Shown here: piece after piece, positions 23,140 to 63,506 of the stretch | Layout: each line of letters opens with the position of its first letter | Position numbering within the stretch: position 1 is the stretch's first letter | Origin: Sphingobacteriales bacterium | GTDB lineage: Bacteria; Bacteroidota; Bacteroidia; Chitinophagales; Chitinophagaceae | Direction: 5' to 3' | DNA length: 64,000 nucleotides | Assembly (NCBI GenBank): GCA_004144175.1 | Contig: SEFT01000016.1 | Location: 1 to 64,000, forward strand | Translations under genes and position numbers: made by a program | Notes under the pieces: model-generated | Told to the model about the DNA's origin: nothing | The model's database searches: none | What the model saw: only the letters and a program-made list of their open reading frames with translations

Positions 23140-26100
23140 ATGAATTCAGACTTCTGCACATCACCCCGGTGGCTACACAATATAGTCTCATCCGGAAGAT
23201 TAGTTATGACGTTGCTGATCTGCTTCTTAGTATTGGAAGCACATGCACAACCGGCAGTAACCATTACTAACGGTCCTACAACTTGCGGCGGAACCAATGG
23301 ATTGATCCGGGTATCTAACCTGATCATAAATCAGCCGTATATTGTATATTATGTAAAGAATGGCACAGCGCTACCCGGTGCATTTATACTCAGTACAGAC
23401 GGAAGCGGCAACTTAGATATTGTAACCTGGGGAACCTTTACGATGACTGCGGGCACCTATACGGATATACAAGTAAGTGATGGTGTAACCACCAGCACTT
23501 TCCCCGGTCCCTATACACTAACCGATCCTGCGCCACCAAATCCGTCACCTACATCCAATAGTCCCGTTTGTGAGGGTGGAACGCTCAATCTTTCAACAAC
23601 AATGCTCGGTGCGACCTATCTATGGTCTGGACCTGGTGGCTTTTCGTCGAATAGTATGGCTCCGTCTTTATCTCCCGTGACGACTGCCCATGCCGGAACG
23701 TATACGCTACGCGTAGTTGCCAATAGTACGCTATGCACTACGTACGTCAATGTACCGGTAGTGGTTAATGCGAAACCGGTGATCGGTACCATATCGGGTC
23801 AAACAATGTGCGCAGGAACCAACAGTACATACGTAAATATACCTGTAGACCTGCCCGGCACTACATTCTCCTGGGCCAATAGTAATGCTTCAATAGGACT
23901 GGCTGCCAGCGGCACAGGTAACATTCCTTCCTTTACTTCTACTAATACTACCAATGCTCCCATTACAGGTACTGTTACTATTACACCTACCAACAATAGC
24001 TGTGTGGGCAGTACCAAGAACGTCGCATTTACTGTCAATCCTATACCGGTGTTGGATCCTATCAGTAATAAGAATTTGTGTCATAATAACGTTTCACCTG
24101 GTATTCCTGTTACAAGTGCAGTATCAGCCTTCGCTTCATGGACCAATAGCCAGCCATCTATAGGTTTGGCGGCTTCGGGTGTAGGGAATGTTTCTTCCTT
24201 TACAGCTACTAATACAGGTACAGCTCCAGTAACAGCCGTTATCACTTATTCTGCATTAGCCAACGGCTGTACAGGGCCGAACATGACGTTTAATATAACC
24301 GTTGCTCCAACACCAGCTGTTAGCACAATAACCAACCAGGTTTATTGCAATGGGTCTACAGCCCCTATATTAAACATTCCTGCTACAATTTCAGGTACTA
24401 CATTTACCTGGACCAATTCGCAACCATCCATAGGGCTGGCAGCAAGCGGCACAGGCAATATTCCCGCTTTTACTACTATGAACAATACCGCCGCACCCGT
24501 GACAGCTACAATTGCCATTACACCTTCGGCTAATGGTTGCACCGGCCCTGTTCAGACATATACTATTACCGTCAACCCAACCCCTGGTACTAATGCAATA
24601 GCTAACCAGGTACATTGTAATGGTGCAACTGCACCGCTGACAGCAATATCGGGAACAGTATCGGGAACCAGCTATGCCTGGACGAACAATACAACGACAA
24701 TAGGTGTAGCAGCCAGTGGCTCAGGTAACATTCCGGCCTTTACCGCAACAAATGGCGGCATAGCTCCCGTCGTAGCAACGATTAGTGTGGTTCCGTCTGC
24801 AAACGGCTGTACCGGGGCCACGTCTTCCTTTACCGTTACAGTCAACCCGACTACAATAATAGGTACTATAGACAATCAAGCCGTTTGTCATGGTTCAAAT
24901 ACGGAATCGGTAAATATACCTGCAACGGTGAGTGGCACCACATTTGCCTGGACAAACAGCAACACGGCTACAGGCTTGGCAGCCAGCGGCACAGGTAATA
25001 TTGCGAGTTTTACGGGAACTAATACTACTAACGCGCCGCGAGTATCAACAGTGAGCGTCACGCCAACTGCCAATGGCTGTACCGGACCGGTAAGCACATT
25101 CACCATTACCGTAAATCTGATACCAACAGTAAACACTGTATCGGACCAAACCAGATGTAATGGTTCTGCAACTGCCGCTATTACCTATACCGGTAATGTT
25201 TCAGGCACGTCTTATAACTGGGTAAATAATAACACGATGATCGGCCTTTCGGCCAGCGGCACAGGTTCCATTGGAAGCTTCAATGGCACAAACACTACAA
25301 ACGCAACTATTACATCCACCATTGCGGTAACACCGGTTGCTAACAATTGTACGGGTACTACCAGCTATTTTACTATTACGGTGAATCCTACTCCGACCGT
25401 GATAGCCATACCTTCGCAAACTGTATGTAACGGTGCGCCTACCGCGGCTGTAAATATAGGTGCGCCGGTAAGTGGTACAACATTTGCCTGGACCAACAAT
25501 AATACAAGCATTGGCCTCGCTGCATCGGGAACCGGAAACCTCCCTTCCTTTACCGCTACCAATATACAAAGCACCACAGAGGTGGCCCAAGTAACTGTGA
25601 TACCAACAGCAAACAGTTGCGTAGGTACTGCCTCAATAGCAGAGTATGTAGTACACCCCACGCCTGTGATAGATGCAGTATCAGGCGATGCTGCATGTAA
25701 CGGAGCAACCGTACCGGCAGTAACGCTTAGCAGCGCAGTATCGGGCGCTACATTCGCGTGGACCAACAACAAAACTTCTATCGGCCTCGGTGCAGGAGGA
25801 ACTAACGCAAATATTCCTTCTTTTACCGCCAGTAACACTACTACAGCGCCGGTTATAGCTACAATATCGGCTGTTGCTACTGCTAATAATTGCGTAGGTA
25901 ATCCGATGACCTATACTATTACCGTTAATCCTACACCAACGGTAAACACCCTTACCGACCTGGTTGTTTGTAATATGGCCAAAACACCCGCGATAGGCTT
26001 TAGTAGCCCTGTTAGCGGTGCTACGTATGCATGGGTGAACGACCTGCCGGCTATCGGCCTTGCCGCCAGTGGTACAGGCGCCATCGATACATTTACTGCA

Positions 26101-42760: not shown

Positions 42761-42790
42761 GTTCTGGATGCTTCGTAGGACATCCTGAAC
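42761..42790 (+). repeat. REP-like palindromic element, copy A (diverged)
   Basis: GGATG-CTTCGTAGGA-CATCC with outer GTTC/GAAC arms. Diverged member of the family seen at 43325, 59117 and 60862; same orientation as the 59117 copy. Confidence 0.6.
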
Positions 42791-42825: not shown

Positions 42826-43272
42826 CTAGTACTTCCTTCTACGCCGCTTTTTTTTCGACCTAAAGAACATGTCATTATATAAAGACATGTCTATGCTTAA
42901 TTCTAATTCACCGACAAGTTTTAATAACTCGGGTGGCAGGTGTAGGGTACTGGTCCAGTTAGCCATTTTATGCTCTATACCAAAATCCAGGTTGGCATAC
43001 TCTACTCCGGGTACTTCGCGTACACGTTGCAACTTTTCGTAATTGTCTTGCAAAAAAGTCAGTACTTCCTGCACTTGCCCTTTGAAGTTGTCAAATCCTG
43101 CTTCAGTAATGCTTCTTGACACAATGGAATAAGGTAGGACACGAATATAAGGAGGTCGCTTAAGTTTCCTTTCGTGGCCTTTTCGCCTTATATCAAACGA
43201 ATGAAAACCGGTATGTTGTACAAATGCATCGGGGTCAAGGTCATGACCTATAAAACTCAAATTGCAACTCAT
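42826..43272 (-). CDS. DUF4279 domain protein
   Basis: 148 residues. The N-terminal LSFIGHDLDPDAFVQHTGFHSFDIRRKGHE matches the DUF4279 start (usually FxIxGxxLDPDEITxxLG...KG), and the rest fits that short alpha/beta family. The C-terminus is a basic run (RSKKKRRRRKY). DUF4279 proteins are often found singly near toxin/immunity loci, but no toxin is visible here, so no role is assigned. The gene is bracketed by REP-like copies A and B. Confidence 0.65.
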   Translation of the reverse strand: MSCNLSFIGHDLDPDAFVQHTGFHSFDIRRKGHERKLKRPPYIRVLPYSIVSRSITEAGFDNFKGQVQEVLTFLQDNYEKLQRVREVPGVEYANLDFGIEHKMANWTSTLHLPPELLKLVGELELSIDMSLYNDMFFRSKKKRRRRKY

Positions 43273-43324: not shown

Positions 43325-43353
43325 TCGGGATGCCCTGCGGAACATCCTCGAAC
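43325..43353 (-). repeat. REP-like palindromic element, copy B
   Basis: GGATG-CCCTGCGGAA-CATCC. Shares 20 nt exactly with copy D at 60862. A half-element CATCCCGAACGAC follows at 43384-43396. Confidence 0.75.
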
Positions 43354-43443: not shown

Positions 43444-43773
43444 ATGAATACTAAAGTGTTTGCATTAATGCCGTGTGTTATAGGTATTTCTAGCATAATC
43501 TTCTTTAGATACATAATTAAAAAGAAAATGAAGGAAACTATTTCCACCTATCATTTCAATGGAATTATTACAAATAGTTATTTGAGTTCTCGCAATCATG
43601 CAGAGCCGATAATAATTATTGATGGTTGGCGTGACATCAAAACCCATTCGTACCAACTTTATAAGCAAGCGGATAAAGGTGATTCAATTGCAAAAGTTAA
43701 AGGCACAATGGAGTATATACTTGTGAAAAAGAACGGATCAACTATTATTGAAGCGGATAGATTAGAGTACTAA
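43444..43773 (+). CDS. Hypothetical single-helix membrane protein
   Basis: 109 residues from MNTKVFALMPCVIGISS (ATG 43444; an upstream frame to 43303 runs through REP copy B and is not credible). One N-terminal transmembrane segment (about 5-23) is followed by a basic KKKMK and a small soluble region with beta-strand character (SYLSSRNHAEPIIIIDGWRD). Notably AT-rich compared with its neighbours, suggesting separate origin. No family recognised. Confidence 0.5.
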   Translation: MNTKVFALMPCVIGISSIIFFRYIIKKKMKETISTYHFNGIITNSYLSSRNHAEPIIIIDGWRDIKTHSYQLYKQADKGDSIAKVKGTMEYILVKKNGSTIIEADRLEY

Positions 43774-44321
43774 ATTCGTCATTATTCGGAATGTTCAACA
43801 GTGTTCCAAGCAACTGACCTTCATCTCCACTACACCATATCAAAACCAACCCTGTTTCGCCTTTAGCGAAACTACTACTCTTATTTCGCCTGCCTCATTA
43901 TGCACACCCCTTTTGTTTATGGTATGTGGCAGGTTTCCTACACCTGTACACCCGCTCAACAGCTGCGTAGCGGCAGCTGTACAACCACATAGCACCCAGG
44001 CAGCATCAGCTTAACATCACCTGAACAGCAGCAGAGCAGCAGCTTTACAGCACCGTACGCGAAGGATAAACATACAGGAAACCAATACAATGCCGAAAGT
44101 GAAACCGCAAAATCGTGCAGCATCCAAAATTATCGACGCTCATCAACCCTGAATATCGATTTAGCAGAGAAATAAGGGGTGTACATTCCGCCCCATCCGG
44201 TTGAAAGGCGGCAACTTTGTACCAACTCGATATCATGATGATAACACAAGCATCCTAAACCTAGCCAACCAAATCTAGCCAAACAGCGTAAGTAACAGAT
44301 ATGATCGTCAGTCCACAAAAA
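43774..44321. other. Intergenic region of accessory island 1
   Basis: About 550 nt without a credible gene. It contains the GCTG-rich dispersed repeat (copy 1) and a small palindromic GGAATGTTC...GTGTTCC at about 43789-43809. The low-complexity CAGC-rich part (43949-44054) spuriously opens short frames. Confidence 0.5.
43949..44090 (-). repeat. Dispersed repeat R, copy 1 (minus orientation)
   Basis: On the minus strand 44071-44037 reads GTTTATCCTTCGC, 3 nt, then CGGTGCTGTAAAGCTGCTG, identical at 32 of 35 positions to 58089-58123 on the plus strand. TTGTATTG also recurs 11-16 nt upstream in both. A GCTG-rich tail follows to 43949. Confidence 0.75.
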
Positions 44322-57937: not shown

Positions 57938-58354
57938 ATCCTTTTCACGTTTTTTAGAGGGTACGCCTGGCGGTTGCCGGCGTTAAACTTCATTAACAAT
58001 TAAAATTCTTGCCAGCGAGGTGATGGAGTAACAATGACACGGAACTTTTTTCTGCATTCATCATTTGTATTGTGTCGGTTTGGCACTCGTTTATCCTTCG
58101 CCGCCGGTGCTGTAAAGCTGCTGTTATGCTGTCGTAAAGGTGCTGCTGTGCTGCCGTTGTGCTGTCGTTACGATGTTGCTGTGCTGCTCTTATGGTGACG
58201 TTGTGCTGTCGTTATGCTGCGGTATGTACCGGCCTGATCTGTACGTGCGGATCGTTGTGCATTGTGCGGCCTTTTTATTTCCATTTTACGATAAACACAT
58301 GCAGACCGCAACCTTGTGGTGCAGCCTTGTTGAGGTGATAGATATGTTGGCCGG
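57938..58354. other. Intergenic region of accessory island 2, left part
   Basis: 417 nt without a credible gene. It contains dispersed repeat R copy 2 and its GCTG-rich tail. A forward frame at 58140-58478 lies within the low-complexity repeat and the antisense of the next gene and is not real. Confidence 0.5.
58065..58225 (+). repeat. Dispersed repeat R, copy 2 (plus orientation)
   Basis: The core 58089-58123 matches copy 1 (44071-44037 on the minus strand) at 32 of 35 positions. The tail 58124-58225 is a degenerate GCTGTYGTTATGCTG-like repeat. Confidence 0.75.
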
Positions 58355-59005
58355 TTATCGCCTTTGCTGTTTGGCGAGTAAATCCCCGATGGCAGCAAAG
58401 GTGGTGTGGGCCTGTACGCGGAGGTTTGGGTTGGCTTGCAGCCGGTCTAGTGCGTGGAAAATGGATTTTTCGTTATAGTCGGCATAGAGGGCCATGCTTT
58501 GGTGAATGTTGAGCGGGGACAGATGCTTGTTTACATCAGGCGCTCTTTGTATGACCGCCTGTTTTAGCTGGCAGTGCATCTCTGCCTCTTTGGGGCTGTA
58601 ACCGGCGTCTAAGCAGGCTTTTGTTTCTTCCTGGTCTAATACCTGTTCACAAGACACTTCGCCCGTAGCTGATACTACCGTAGCTTCAGGCTTTTGTTGC
58701 TTGCTGCGCCTGGTATAGCTGAGGGTTGACATTAGGTATCCACTTTCCACTGCCAGCAGTTCGTATATTTCTATCATATGCTGTAGCAGTTGGGTAAATG
58801 CATTTGCCGCAATACCTACCTGCCCAGCCAGCCTGCGTATGCGTGCATGGGTATGCTCTATACGCATGCCTTCCTCACCGTGCATTATTTCCAGTATCAT
58901 CCAATAGGCGCCATAGCCCGTAGCCCCATGGTCGCCCACGAGGGCTGCTATCCTTTCATTGTGGCGTGTATCTGTTGAGTGGCGAAGGATCTTTGCTCTT
59001 GGCAT
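58355..59005 (-). CDS. DUF4373 / Lin1244-type domain protein (phage-replication-like N-terminus)
   Basis: 216 residues. ILRHSTDTRHNERIAALVGDHGATGYGAYWMILEIMHGEEGMRI matches the DUF4373 N-terminal domain (FxHDTxxRNDxKIxxLxxxxGxxGYGxYWxxxE) found in phage or plasmid replication-initiator-like proteins. The C-terminal half is helical with no recognised motif. It lies between repeat R and REP copy C. It is probably an isolated remnant or passenger of a mobile element; its role is unknown. Confidence 0.7.
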   Translation of the reverse strand: MPRAKILRHSTDTRHNERIAALVGDHGATGYGAYWMILEIMHGEEGMRIEHTHARIRRLAGQVGIAANAFTQLLQHMIEIYELLAVESGYLMSTLSYTRRSKQQKPEATVVSATGEVSCEQVLDQEETKACLDAGYSPKEAEMHCQLKQAVIQRAPDVNKHLSPLNIHQSMALYADYNEKSIFHALDRLQANPNLRVQAHTTFAAIGDLLAKQQRR

Positions 59006-59400
59006 ATCTTATAGGGTTTATATGCAAAGATGAGCTAATGGTGGCCGGAGAAGGCTTTTGCACACCCCCTTTTTAGGTTGCGTACAGAATGCTTTTACCC
59101 TTTAGGATACGACGTTGCTCGGGATGTTCCGCAGGGCATTCCAAATAATGACGAGGTCTGTAAGCGGACGGTTGGATATTGGTAGGGCAAAACAATACGC
59201 TTCGATCCAGTTGGAACACATCCGAACAAGGACGTTAATATATTAGCTAATGGCTTCAAATAAGCTTACCTTCACTGTAATTGCATTTGAACGTCTTCTG
59301 ATCCGCATTTCTATTCTTCTCTTCAGTCCTTGTTTATTGCTGTTATAGTTACAGTGCCTATAGGGCAATTCCGCCTTATAATAATGTTACACAGATTTCC
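59006..59400. other. Intergenic region with REP-like copy C
   Basis: 395 nt without a credible gene. Contains REP-like copy C and a partial CATCCGAAC at about 59219. AT-rich near the start of the following small gene. Confidence 0.5.
59117..59143 (+). repeat. REP-like palindromic element, copy C
   Basis: CGGGATG-TTCCGCAGGG-CATTCC. Its reverse complement shares 21 nt exactly with copy D (60862). Confidence 0.75.
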
Positions 59401-59679
59401 ATGAAAACCAAATTGAGCACATTAGCAGAGGTGGCAAGATTGCGCACGGGCGACATTGTAAAAAGATTTCCTACACAGGGCGAACCGCAGGACACTTTCG
59501 ATGAAAGCCGCAAAAAGCATACAGATACCTTCGAGATAAGATCCATAAACGCATCGAATGAAATGGTAGAACTGGTAATGACCGGCGAGTCGGTTCATAT
59601 GTTCTCATCGGCGGGCGATATAGGCAGGGTATTCATTAAGTCTTACAACCTGATAGAAGAAAAGGTTTGGTGGGTATAG
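59401..59679 (+). CDS. Hypothetical small cytosolic protein
   Basis: 92 residues with no signal or membrane segment. Polar, with SH3/OB-like beta character (LRTGDIVKRF, MVELVMTGESVHMF, GRVFIKSYNLIEEKVWWV). No family recognised. First of four orphan genes between REP copies C and D, 36 nt upstream of the next. Confidence 0.55.
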   Translation: MKTKLSTLAEVARLRTGDIVKRFPTQGEPQDTFDESRKKHTDTFEIRSINASNEMVELVMTGESVHMFSSAGDIGRVFIKSYNLIEEKVWWV

Positions 59680-59715
59680 GCTCATTGTTTTTTTTAAGAA
59701 AGCCAATAGTAAGCC

Positions 59716-59991
59716 ATGAATAACAAAATGCCCGACTGCAAGCTATACCTCAGCAGCAACAGGCAGTACCTGACCAATGACCAAGGCGCCAACCTCTATT
59801 CGAAGATAGAGGTGGATGGTAAGGTATATTACCGCATCATAGGACTGGAGTCTGAAGCCTTTGAGAAGGTGTGTAACAATATGATAGCCGTTAGTGTGTG
59901 TACAACACCCAGGATCGACCGTAAAGATGAGCAATGGGAAGAGGTAAATATATGTACCGGTTGGAACCTGGTACAGAAAGACCTTTCATAG
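59716..59991 (+). CDS. Hypothetical small cytosolic protein
   Basis: 91 residues, no signal or membrane segment. Several cysteines (DCKLYL, KVCNNM, VSVCTT, NICTGWN) and a beta-rich core (LYSKIEVDGKVYYRIIGLESEAF). No family recognised. It shares orientation with the preceding gene. Its 3' end, including the stop, forms one arm and loop of a bidirectional terminator. Confidence 0.55.
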   Translation: MNNKMPDCKLYLSSNRQYLTNDQGANLYSKIEVDGKVYYRIIGLESEAFEKVCNNMIAVSVCTTPRIDRKDEQWEEVNICTGWNLVQKDLS

Positions 59992-60013
59992 TGTAAGGCC
60001 ATTCTGTACCAGG
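59967..60013. terminator. Bidirectional terminator between convergent orphan genes
   Basis: Perfect 12-bp stem CCTGGTACAGAA (59967-59978) / TTCTGTACCAGG (60002-60013). The 23-nt loop holds the stop codon of the rightward gene. Confidence 0.75.
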
Positions 60014-60019
60014 GGAGCG

Positions 60020-60250
60020 TTAGTCAAAATGTATGACCACCTCTGTGCCTTCTTCATCGGGCATAGGCAGCGGCTCATAAGCATGCGGTGCCAGAAATAC
60101 AGGTATGGCGGTGCCGGTATATTGCCTCAACTGATGCTGCTCTATACGCAGCCCAAAGAATACATCATTAAGGCACTGTACGTCCAGCGACACTTTCTTG
60201 TCGTCGCTTGCTATGGTAAGGCTGGTAATAAAAGCCGGTATTGCATTCAT
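60020..60250 (-). CDS. Hypothetical small protein
   Basis: 76 residues, no signal. Beta-rich (FITSLTIASDDKKVSLDVQCL, YTGTAIPVFLAPHAYEPLPMPDEEG, ending VVIHFD). No family recognised. 28 nt downstream of the other leftward orphan gene, so probably co-transcribed. Confidence 0.5.
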   Translation of the reverse strand: MNAIPAFITSLTIASDDKKVSLDVQCLNDVFFGLRIEQHQLRQYTGTAIPVFLAPHAYEPLPMPDEEGTEVVIHFD

Positions 60251-60278
60251 AAGCGTATGTGTTTAGAAGCGTTTACAA

Positions 60279-60641
60279 TTAATGCTGTTGGTGATGGTGC
60301 GATATAAAGTAAGTGCTATCGGTAGCGAAGCCTGCCAGCAGGTATGCCTCGTACGCACGCAGAAATTCGGGGTTGGCCCTGCAAGCATCAAACAAAGCCT
60401 CGATATGGCCGCTGGTGTAGGTGCCAGTAGTTACAAGTCTTGTAAGCTCGGGGTTTGCATGGGCCCATTGATGGGGCAGAGCATGATCGCGGTAGAAGGA
60501 AATAACAATCTCGCCTTTGTAATAAACGGGCATAAGGTTCATATCCTCTTTCATAGTAGCCATTTCGGCTGTTAGCTCGGGGTAGTCTTTAGGGCTAAAC
60601 TTATCAGTACCCGAAACGTCGTATTTTTTGACAATATCCAT
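60279..60641 (-). CDS. Hypothetical small protein with His-rich C-terminus
   Basis: 120 residues, no signal. Mostly helical (YPELTAEMATMKEDMNLM, HIEALFDACRANPEFLRAYEAYLLAGF) and ends in SHHHQQH, a possible metal-binding tail. No family recognised. Leftmost REP-bounded gene of the island on this strand, 28 nt before the next. Confidence 0.5.
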   Translation of the reverse strand: MDIVKKYDVSGTDKFSPKDYPELTAEMATMKEDMNLMPVYYKGEIVISFYRDHALPHQWAHANPELTRLVTTGTYTSGHIEALFDACRANPEFLRAYEAYLLAGFATDSTYFISHHHQQH

Positions 60642-60965
60642 AACTTCTGTTTTAAAAACAGCAGATGTAAGAGGATCGAAACCTAGGAAAGAAAGTCAGA
60701 AGATTAGGAAAGAATTACAGTGCTCTCGATGAACAATAACTAAAGGTAGACTTAATAAGTGGTATGCTACGTTAATGTTTTTTATTTGTGTTGTACAGGA
60801 AGGAATGTGTCTTGACTCAGTGCTGGCGAAGTCCGTTCGGAGAACGGCGCTTTATCCTGTATTCAGGATGCCCTGCGGAACATCCCGAACAACGAATATT
60901 CATGTGCGTGTTCTTCACAAACAGGCTCGGTTGATATAGGGCATAGTTCTTTTGCCTCTTTTAAT
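60642..60965. other. Intergenic region with REP-like copy D
   Basis: 324 nt without a credible gene. Holds REP-like copy D and the promoter of the UvrA-like gene; TTCTTTTG at about 60947 is a weak match to the -7 element. Confidence 0.5.
60862..60889 (-). repeat. REP-like palindromic element, copy D
   Basis: GGATG-CCCTGCGGAA-CATCC, 20 nt identical to copy B and 21 nt identical to the reverse complement of copy C. Confidence 0.8.
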
Positions 60966-63506
60966 ATGAAGAAGCAACATTCAGGGAATGAGGATTTTAA
61001 AGGCTTTGTCCGTGTGCGTGGGGCCCGCGAGCATAACTTGAAAAATGTGAATGTTGACATACCCCGCGATGCGCTTGTGGTGTTCACTGGCGTATCAGGA
61101 TCGGGAAAATCTTCCCTGGCTTTTGGCACCTTGTATGCAGAGGCGCAGCGCCGCTATCTCGAGTCGGTATCTCCCTACGCACGCCGGCTATTCAACCAGA
61201 TGTCGGTGCCTGAGGTCGATGCGATAGAAGGGTTGCCGCCTGCTGTAGCACTGCAGCAACAGCGCGGAGCCGTCACTACACGTTCTTCTGTAGGTAGCGT
61301 CACTACACTTTCTAATCTGCTGCGCATGCTCTACTCGCGTGCGGGAGACTACCCCCGTGGCCAGACTATAATTTATGCTGAAGCATTCTCTCCCAATACA
61401 CCCGAAGGTGCTTGTCCCGAATGCCATGGGCTGGGCCGGGTATACGAAGTAACGGAGCAGTCGATGGTGCCCGATGATTCGCTCACCATTCGTGAGCGTG
61501 CTATAGCTGCATGGCCAACTGCCTGGCAGGGTCAGAATCTGCGTGAGATACTGATGACCCTTGGCTATGACGTAGATACGCGCTGGCGCGAACTATCTCA
61601 GGAAGACCGCGACTGGATACTATTTACAGAAGAGCAGCCCACGGTGCCGGTTTACTCCGGCCTTACCATGGCAGAAGTAAAAAGGGCATTGAAGCAAAAG
61701 ATGGAGCCCAGCTATATGGGTACCTTCACCAGTGCGCGGCGCTATGTGTTGCAAACATTTGCCACTTCGCAAAGTCAGCTCATGAAGAAAAGAGTGGCGC
61801 AGTATATGATTGGCAGCGAGTGTAAACTGTGCCATGGCAAAAGACTCCGCAGGGAATCACTATCTATTAAGTTCGATGAACTGGATATAACCGAAATGTC
61901 GCGGCTGCCCCTGAGCCAACTGCACCAAATATTTACACCGTATGCTACTGGCAAGGGCGCTGCAAAGGGCTCAGAACATACCCATCCCGAAAAAGAGCTG
62001 GTAACACAACGCATTGCTCAGGACCTTGTGGGCAGGCTGGGTGTCATTCTCGATCTTGGCCTTGGCTACCTCACACTCGAGCGGAACACGCCAACGCTAT
62101 CTCCGGGAGAGCTGCAACGGCTAAGGCTGGCCACACAGGTTCATTCCAACCTTTTCGGAGTAGTATATGTGCTCGACGAGCCATCGGCAGGTTTACACCC
62201 TGCCGACACCGAAGCTTTGCTGCGGGCATTAGATAAGCTGAAGGCATCGGGCAATTCCCTATTCGTGGTAGAGCATGAGGTGGATGTGATACGCCATGCT
62301 GACTGGATCGTGGATGTAGGGCCTGCAGCAGGCGTTCACGGGGGGCATGTACTCTATAGCGGTCCGCTGGCAGGGCTGGCTGGGGTAGAACAATCTATAA
62401 CAAGACGGTTTATCTCTGACACCCAAAAAAAGAAACAACGCACCTACCGGCAACCTAGCGGCTGGCTGCGACTTGCAGGCGTCAGCCGGAATAACCTGAA
62501 CAAGTTGGATGCATCTTTCCCCTTGGGTGTATTTACCAGTGTTACAGGCGTATCAGGTTCTGGCAAGAGCAGCCTTGTGAGCCAGGTGTTGGTGGAGCTG
62601 GTAGCGGAGCAGCTAGGGCAGAAGCTGGACGATACTCCTCCCGATCAGCAGGATCTCCTGCACGAGGAAGTGGTAACACTAGATGGCAGGATCAAAGAAG
62701 GGATGGACAAAATAAAGCGGCTGGTGCGTGTCGACCAGAAACCGATAGGACGTACACCACGCTCCAACCTGGCTACCTATACCGGCCTTTTCGATCATGT
62801 AAGAAAGCTGTTTGCAGCAACGAAGATGGCTAGATCGAGGAAGTATGATGTAGGTCGCTTCTCTTTCAATGTAGCGAAGGGCCGCTGCCCGCATTGCGAA
62901 GGTGAAGGCTTTGTGATGGTAGAGCTGTTGTTCCTGCCAAGCGTATACTCGCCCTGCCCTACCTGCCATGGCAGTCGGTACAACGAAAAAACACTGGAGA
63001 TACGCTACAAAGACAAGAACATAGCCGAGGTGCTGGATATGACAGTAGATACCGCATGGGAATTTTTTGCTGATGAACCCCAGTTGCACCGTGCGCTGGA
63101 TGTAGTGCGACAAGTAGGCCTGGGCTATCTGCGCCTGGGGCAGCCTGCTACCGAACTATCGGGCGGCGAAGCGCAGCGCATAAAGCTGGCAACCGAGCTA
63201 CAGCGTATGCAGCGCGGCAATACATTATATATACTCGATGAGCCTACCACAGGCTTGCACCCATCGGATGTAGAGAAGCTGATGGTGCAGCTGAATGTAC
63301 TGGTTGATGCCGGCAATACGGTCATTGCGGTAGAGCATGACATGTACGTAATAGCCGCCAGCGACTGGATCATAGACATTGGCCCAGGTGCAGGCGAAGA
63401 TGGCGGACAAATTGTCGCAGAAGGAACTCCGGAACAACTGGCCGGGAATAAAAAAAGTAAAACCGCTCAATACCTGGCCAGACATTTAAATATCGGTGGC
63501 TCGTGA
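60966..63506 (+). CDS. UvrA-like ATPase without UvrB-binding domain (UvrA2 type)
   Basis: 846 residues, shorter than the 940 of E. coli UvrA. Two ABC ATPase domains: Walker A GVSGSGKSSLAF (about 42) and GVSGSGKSSLVSQ (about 528); signatures LSPGELQRLRLATQ (about 378) and LSGGEAQRIKLATE (about 732). The zinc motifs CPECHGLG, CKLCHGKR and CPHCEGEG...CPTCHGSR are present. Between LYSRAGDYP and FSPNTPEGACPEC only about 15 residues occur where UvrA has its UvrB-binding domain. The protein therefore belongs to the second UvrA class, whose role (DNA damage tolerance or drug resistance) is less clear than repair. It directly follows accessory island 2. Confidence 0.9.
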   Translation: MKKQHSGNEDFKGFVRVRGAREHNLKNVNVDIPRDALVVFTGVSGSGKSSLAFGTLYAEAQRRYLESVSPYARRLFNQMSVPEVDAIEGLPPAVALQQQRGAVTTRSSVGSVTTLSNLLRMLYSRAGDYPRGQTIIYAEAFSPNTPEGACPECHGLGRVYEVTEQSMVPDDSLTIRERAIAAWPTAWQGQNLREILMTLGYDVDTRWRELSQEDRDWILFTEEQPTVPVYSGLTMAEVKRALKQKMEPSYMGTFTSARRYVLQTFATSQSQLMKKRVAQYMIGSECKLCHGKRLRRESLSIKFDELDITEMSRLPLSQLHQIFTPYATGKGAAKGSEHTHPEKELVTQRIAQDLVGRLGVILDLGLGYLTLERNTPTLSPGELQRLRLATQVHSNLFGVVYVLDEPSAGLHPADTEALLRALDKLKASGNSLFVVEHEVDVIRHADWIVDVGPAAGVHGGHVLYSGPLAGLAGVEQSITRRFISDTQKKKQRTYRQPSGWLRLAGVSRNNLNKLDASFPLGVFTSVTGVSGSGKSSLVSQVLVELVAEQLGQKLDDTPPDQQDLLHEEVVTLDGRIKEGMDKIKRLVRVDQKPIGRTPRSNLATYTGLFDHVRKLFAATKMARSRKYDVGRFSFNVAKGRCPHCEGEGFVMVELLFLPSVYSPCPTCHGSRYNEKTLEIRYKDKNIAEVLDMTVDTAWEFFADEPQLHRALDVVRQVGLGYLRLGQPATELSGGEAQRIKLATELQRMQRGNTLYILDEPTTGLHPSDVEKLMVQLNVLVDAGNTVIAVEHDMYVIAASDWIIDIGPGAGEDGGQIVAEGTPEQLAGNKKSKTAQYLARHLNIGGS

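Follow-up and report, generated by a model that had tools for sequence, protein, structure and literature searches.

The closest described counterparts of the repeat analysed here are the iteron origins of replication, in which an array of direct repeats lies beside a gene of an initiator family (lambda O with ori-lambda, and the iterons of plasmids) and the array is directional, with one end slightly AT-richer. Repeat R, an array of phased 11-nt units, shares these properties. It occurs in two accessory islands of the 64,000-nt stretch of Sphingobacteriales DNA examined here (the window; positions 1 to 64,000 of SEFT01000016.1 in assembly GCA_004144175.1, our contig C67, one of the 93 contigs of a 4.34-Mb genome), and in one of them it accompanies a gene of family PF14297 (Lin1244_N / DUF4373). 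Unlike the iteron origins, R is made up of about 9–12 units of 11 nt, is found 3′ of the gene, lacks a clear AT-rich melting region and is present in 29 chromosomal copies, most of them without the gene.

Other known systems resemble R in part. In the accessible portion of one report on lambda plasmids, an 'inhibition phenotype' is described in which oop transcription together with the origin iterons blocks rep-lambda phages, the AT-rich part of the origin being dispensable (PMC3349717). The components, a promoter, a short transcript and iterons without the AT-rich part, are those seen in the cassettes that carry R; the phenotype is an engineered plasmid effect, and the likeness is in layout alone. 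Segregation arrays such as parC of ParMRC are 11-bp direct repeats bound by an oligomerising protein. Unlike parC, R is found at many chromosomal sites and on no plasmid. FopS and other multicopy small RNAs of Bacteroides form, like R, many dispersed paralogs with a promoter motif, another such family adjoins transposases or invertases, and FopS has a terminator hairpin and is conserved across the Bacteroidaceae (all from the part of PMC11697453 that was available), whereas R is an 11-nt array without a clear fold and has no convincing copy in the relatives searched. Finally, repetitive extragenic palindromic sequences (REPs) and their doublets (REPINs), together with REP-associated tyrosine transposases, provide a match in the palindrome, the inverted pairs and the presence of Y1_Tnp genes, three of which are found here, though this applies to the REP sequences near R and not to R itself, and the copies are few. 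The GTAG or CGTC tag named for such elements in the title of PMC3733652 is not next to the REP cores that we examined.

The reading that we tentatively prefer, at somewhat less than even confidence, is that the genome contains dispersed cassettes consisting of a promoter, in some cases an initiator gene, and an iteron-like array, with R serving as a cis binding array and the PF14297 protein as the first candidate for its partner. As judged from the sequence, R is probably a protein-binding site rather than one half of a composite transposon. The non-coding, phase-locked 11-bp units would form the cis binding site of an oligomerising protein, the cassettes dispersed in the chromosome would each contain a promoter-like motif (M), an optional PF14297 gene and R, and the PF14297 protein would coat the array as initiators do with iterons. 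Where the gene is missing, R would provide a further operator or titration site, and the effect of binding might be control of the M promoters, copy control or titration of the initiator.

A start close to ACGGTGCTGTAAAG is common to the copies of R. It is preceded, 5′, by an A- or T-tract and a leader of about five 11-nt units that are AT-richer, and followed, 3′, by an array of about 9–12 GC-richer units with the consensus GCTGCTGTTGT, giving a total of about 14–17 phased units per copy from a fixed start. The array ends vary by whole units, between about 9 and 12 as read from the unit scores. Self-identity at a lag of 11 nt is 0.60 in the array, 0.34 in the leader and 0.29 in the tail, with other lags outside the array mostly at 0.25–0.29, and conservation is also periodic at 11 nt (lag-11 autocorrelation 0.76 in the array and 0.47 in the leader, compared with 0.39 and 0.14 at lag 3). 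MAFFT aligned 28 copies without gaps over 151 columns and the base count equals the model-position count in all 29 model matches, while the mean identity between copies, calculated at fixed offsets with gaps disallowed, is only 0.589 (range 0.459–0.814). A protein-coding repeat was considered and rejected: the ratio of nonsynonymous to synonymous polymorphism (pN/pS) is 0.71–0.96 in the six frames and each frame is interrupted by a stop in at least 10 of the 29 copies. Some open reading frames (ORFs) do run through R.

In the window, the copy in island 2 lies at 58045–58226 on the plus strand (86.7 bits), with the leader at 58045–58104 and an array of about 10–11 units starting at 58105. The copy in island 1 is on the minus strand at 43935–44115 (86.1 bits) and has no adjoining PF14297 gene. 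An earlier note on this DNA, made from the sequence alone, had reported a repeat shared by the two islands in these orientations, and a BLAST match of 80 % identity over 65 bp (E 5e-13) bears this out, but R extends well beyond that match as phased 11-nt units. The note had also proposed a BLASTN search of the genome and of related genomes, and this found many loci here and none in 38 relatives. When the region around R was used as query against the whole genome, the 28 matches obtained corresponded to 25 R loci and three second matches past the array. A sequence-only model built from 28 aligned copies brought the number in this genome to 29, scoring 70–106 bits. The same model found only four matches in 14 genomes of the same genus (16.9–18.9 bits), none with an 11-nt array, in searches that scored 150 of 963–1,574 first-look candidates per genome and may miss very weak copies. 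A strict R pattern, which catches 14 of 24 known copies, had no match in a public genome collection or a viral collection, though these collections may leave out this genome and those near it. Hence, with these search caveats, R looks private to this lineage.

PF14297 matches number 15 in this genome, two of them with stops within the last few codons of the match, and R is found at the 3′ end of 11 of the 15 genes. The distance from stop codon to the R anchor is 250–526 bp for nine of these 11, and in the other two the called ORF enters R. The gene in island 2 (58355–59005, minus strand), which converges on R, was correctly labelled DUF4373 in the earlier note (31.6 bits against a PF14297 cutoff of 25), and its product matches phrog_2562, 'replication initiation protein', at E 1.3e-5. 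A divergent paralog shares 29.5 % identity over 105 residues (E 6e-4) with a Porphyromonas phage protein that is annotated as a replication initiation protein and encoded next to a DnaC-like helicase loader. In one relative of the same genus a DnaB gene (PF00772, 91.6 bits) is directly downstream of the PF14297 gene, and a similar ORF was seen by eye downstream of PF14297 in three further relatives. On these sequence matches, the PF14297 family is related to phage replication initiators. Ten of the 14 same-genus relatives have one or two distant PF14297 copies (best E 2e-13) and four have none; nothing like R is found beside the PF14297 genes of the relatives. AT-rich short-period repeats (TCTAAAT-like), possibly iterons of their own, were observed upstream of PF14297 genes in relatives (L079, L080 and L083). 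In the present genome, defence-like genes chosen by eye are found within about 1.3 kb of four PF14297 loci (AriA/AriB-like, type II restriction-modification protein, NsnB-like ATPase and AriA-like ATPase; L033:4206–6420, L034:2643–5135, L031:17092–18237 and L113:6331–8229), as identified in a PADLOC scan of eight proteins, five of them preselected for a defence-like look, which provides no enrichment count.

The PF14297 gene is under purifying selection. The ratio of nonsynonymous to synonymous substitution rates (dN/dS) is about 0.16–0.37 in 43 of the 45 pairs formed by ten genes, the other two pairs being saturated for dS, which is high in many, and it is 0.17–0.33 between the island 2 gene and nine paralogs, several with saturated dS. 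Mean identity among the ten closest paralogs is 0.74 over the first 100 residues and 0.39 over the remainder, as expected if a DNA target is shared. At one locus (anchor C4:34795), only a remnant of the 5′ end of a PF14297 gene, recognized by reading and by DNA homology, is left beside R, and this R scores 186 with a matrix trained on these same copies, for which the range is 144–195. As R is in a good state beside a gene remnant, it may have a function independent of the gene or act in trans.

Motif M, AAAGGGGGTGTGCA, was found with no more than one mismatch at 24 places in the genome, and a reversed control was found at none. Exactly 26 nt past M there is an A in 24 of 24 cases, followed by two bases, TT in 24 of 24 and a third T in 19 of 24, as in CATCTTTGC, a box that resembles the Bacteroidota −7 element. 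At the PF14297 genes the start codon follows M and its box, which in island 2 lie together at 59022–59072 on the minus strand. M is a putative promoter. By hand count, R or PF14297 loci account for 21 of the 24 sites, including one (C4:36557) beside the gene remnant. Two others, at C77:15391 and C77:26478, precede ORFs in a contractile-tailed prophage at about 7–31 kb of C77 (L110 and L111; terminase, portal, tail sheath and tape measure), one ORF being CLP_protease-like and the other without a family match, and the last is isolated at C6:155505. Two leftward host-like genes lie just before the second prophage site. With a matrix trained on the 24 sites, which gave no match in 182,000 strand-bases of background, M points at R in 21 of the 29 copies, 11 with the gene and ten without an intact gene; 14 of these 21 sites are in the training set and seven are not, two of the seven having a weak box. 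In four copies R lies between two outward-facing M motifs, the right-hand boxes being weak, and this is the case in island 1, where a weaker motif with box is at 44172–44222 on the plus strand and one with a weak box is at 43864–43914 on the minus strand. The remaining four copies have no M match.

A number of observations weigh against the PF14297 protein as initiator-like ligand of R. To our knowledge, 11-bp iterons are unusual for initiators. No PF14297 gene is present at 18 of the 29 R copies, and four of the 15 genes have no R. An origin with a melting region was rejected, as the leader is 59–61 % AT compared with 52–59 % in most flanking windows; its stability is little below that of the flanks, and no strong AT-rich dip is seen. 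The divergence of the gene at first appeared to be significantly correlated with that of R for whole proteins (Mantel r 0.37, P 0.004), a comparison that includes the two ORFs running into R, but for the first 100 residues r was 0.19 (P 0.11, 11 genes), and 0.12 (P 0.24) when those two ORFs were left out. As it is not significant over the first 100 residues, co-divergence was dropped as evidence, which slightly reduced our confidence in the preferred reading. A single-sequence structure model of the PF14297 protein was poor (mean predicted local distance difference test score, pLDDT, 39.9) and a search of solved structures with the family profile gave no match at E up to 1. Free pairwise alignment of the R copies introduces small or 22-nt gaps in many pairs, so that the array may have gained or lost whole units internally, with its phase still kept. 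Finally, transcription from M would cross R in the 21 copies at which M points, so a role for R as RNA can equally be drawn. That a protein binds R, and that this protein is the PF14297 product, is what we infer from the arrangement of the cassettes.

The RNA alternative, which we consider rather unlikely and yet the most serious rival, is that R acts as a C/A-rich, unstructured tail that is transcribed from M and binds an RNA-binding protein or a target RNA, either as the 3′ untranslated region of the PF14297 mRNA or, in the solo copies, as a short RNA of about 200 nt. In addition to the orientation of M, including that at the ten copies without an intact gene, it would account for the excess of G over C on the plus strand from about −75 to +250, a single strand bias as long as a transcript, and multicopy small-RNA families exist in Bacteroides (PMC11697453, accessible portion). 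The gene on the 3′ side of R also runs towards R in 23 of 27 copies, assessed by eye (two more, in C35 and at C24:5513, were unclear), and among the solo copies in 12 of 16 (P 0.038). Against this are the four copies from which M faces away and the four without a match to it. There is no consensus RNA fold on the plus strand of R, and the minus-strand RNAs of five of six copies fold like shuffled sequences (z −0.47 to 0.66), the sixth having z −2.3. No Rfam 15 match at the gathering score was found in 40000–64000, and a scan of one locus for terminator-like sites on the minus strand was negative. Moreover, neither a seed nor a terminator needs an exact 11-nt phase kept over many units.

A further possibility, in our view unlikely, is that a general protein, for example gyrase or a nucleoid protein, uses R as a wrapping or topology site placed behind genes. 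In the Escherichia coli gyrase motif, as set out in the available part of PMC6379681, GC content is phased at 10.75 bp, in two arms that extend over about 130 bp, and enrichment of gyrase sites is seen downstream of operons with high transcription. R is mostly found behind the 3′ ends of genes, and in its unit, read from base counts, conservation is highest for G preceded by a pyrimidine, while positions nearby tolerate transitions. The gyrase motif is, however, symmetric and degenerate, whereas R is directional with a fixed start, and a general site would hardly be absent from all 14 genomes of the same genus or be tied to PF14297 and M.

It is more doubtful still that the R cassettes are an old and now inert transposable family, with long units that include the gene and short derivatives that do not. 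The 29 copies are scattered, long units are in most cases homologous between the A-tract and a point just beyond M (about 100 bp further in a few pairs), and the short units, of about 300–330 bp, share both ends. Four R copies, within the stretches scanned for tRNAs, are 0.14–1.1 kb beyond the 3′ end of a tRNA. One of the cassettes lies beyond tRNA-Ser and tRNA-Pro (L035:7430–7636) after dnaA; the same tRNA pair was seen by eye in two of the 14 relatives (L175 and L182), followed by an integrase- or recombinase-like gene, and in the other 12 none of these tRNAs is present in the first 330 nt after dnaA. This site looks like an integration hotspot, though with no clean empty site. However, the cassettes contain no transposase and no terminal inverted repeat was seen by eye, the ends of the units may simply be a promoter and a 3′ end, and inert DNA at 59 % identity should have lost its exact phase and its genes their low dN/dS.

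The boldest reading, and an improbable one, is that the cassettes are domesticated phage origins, spread over the chromosome as decoys by which the initiator of an incoming phage would be titrated. It draws on the phage-type initiator gene, where present, the prophage-type M and an iteron array without a melting region, and may be compared with the lambda iterons that, with a short transcript, block rep-lambda phages from a plasmid.

The earlier note had seen R as part of a larger frame, in which R and REP copies surround unrelated genes in mirrored order in the two islands. All four of its REP copies were located: A (42766–42785, plus strand, four mismatches to the core, with the interior of a foldback element on its 3′ side), B (43328–43347, minus strand, outer part only), C (59122–59141, plus strand, outer part only, one mismatch) and D (60866–60885, minus strand, with the foldback-element interior). 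The local alignment scores of A, B and C with D are 52, 48 and 50, compared with maxima of 25, 21 and 22 in 200 shuffles. The cargo does differ around the common repeat, as had been stated. Island 1 includes an ORF at 42826–43272 (minus strand), for which the label DUF4279 corresponds to a weak match that, at 22 bits, falls under the curated cutoff of 25, and another at 43444–43773 (plus strand) with its 3′ end facing R. The four ORFs between 59401 and 60641 in island 2 (59401–59679 and 59716–59991 on the plus strand, 60020–60250 and 60279–60641 on the minus strand) have no Pfam match at E up to 0.1 and deserve the name of orphans given to them. The mirrored arrangement is there, but its shared order and orientation are mostly automatic, as an inverted REP pair reads forward and then inverted from either end, and it is weak evidence for a single unit. 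What is not automatic is the position of R on one side and the direction of the R-adjacent gene, towards R. Island 2 is flanked by an accessory gene for a UvrA-like ABC protein of 846 amino acids (60966–63506), for which the best long match is only 42–44 % identical in each of the 14 same-genus genomes, and in the absence of a close match to this flanking gene an empty site of island 2 could not be shown. Elsewhere in the window, at 23833–25577, there are five diverged copies of a 128-nt direct repeat, with spacings of about 270 or 540 nt.

The REP core occurs nine times in the genome with no more than two mismatches, and R and REPs are associated genome-wide, in which respect the earlier note is supported. 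Five of the six REP clusters are less than 3 kb from R, when 4 % of a uniform genome is that near (P about 6e-7, a value that assumes uniformity; the rate expected by chance would be higher with islands rich in non-coding DNA). Eight of the nine cores have one of the 29 R copies within 3 kb and the ninth has one within 6 kb, and by reading all nine are on the 3′ side of the nearest R. Viewed from R, a REP core is found within 3 kb at only five of the 29 loci, or at seven when the weaker matches at C4:25489 and C6:75507 are counted, and R has its own partners in motif M and, in 11 copies, the PF14297 gene. Five of the nine cores are in separate foldback elements of about 150–160 bp from core to core (two in C4, and others in C15 and C47). 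The sequence common to A and D is about 61 bp long and reaches into the foldback interior, but that which B and C have in common with D is limited to about 35 bp; hence, one unit in two copies does not describe the REP pairs. The four REP regions of the window fold like shuffled sequences (z −0.75 to 0.32) and not as strong hairpins. The three Y1_Tnp (REP-transposase-like) matches in the genome are at C35:93718, C6:75972 and C88:148323; two of them are less than 3 kb from R and the remaining one adjoins a PF14297 gene. A very short inverted REP-like pair, with three mismatches each and about 45 bp apart, was noted at C47:216813–216858 (L041) and is possibly a minimal REPIN. The REPs are a separate element from R, and their link to it may reflect shared accessory islands. 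A non-autonomous mobile unit with R and REP as its ends and variable cargo between them is very improbable: the clustering of REPs near R far above the uniform-genome expectation speaks for it, but at 24 of the 29 R loci a REP core is lacking within 3 kb, more than half of the cores are in foldback elements of their own and the agreement in orientation is automatic.

Although elements such as iterons, initiators, REPs and multicopy small RNAs are known, neither the combination described here nor the exact 11-bp arrays appeared in the literature searched, a statement based on search listings, with most subscription papers beyond reach. The R cassettes offer a compact, testable system in which to ask why a host keeps many copies of a phage-type initiator together with its possible binding sites. 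Regulation, selfish spread and decoy defence are candidate purposes.

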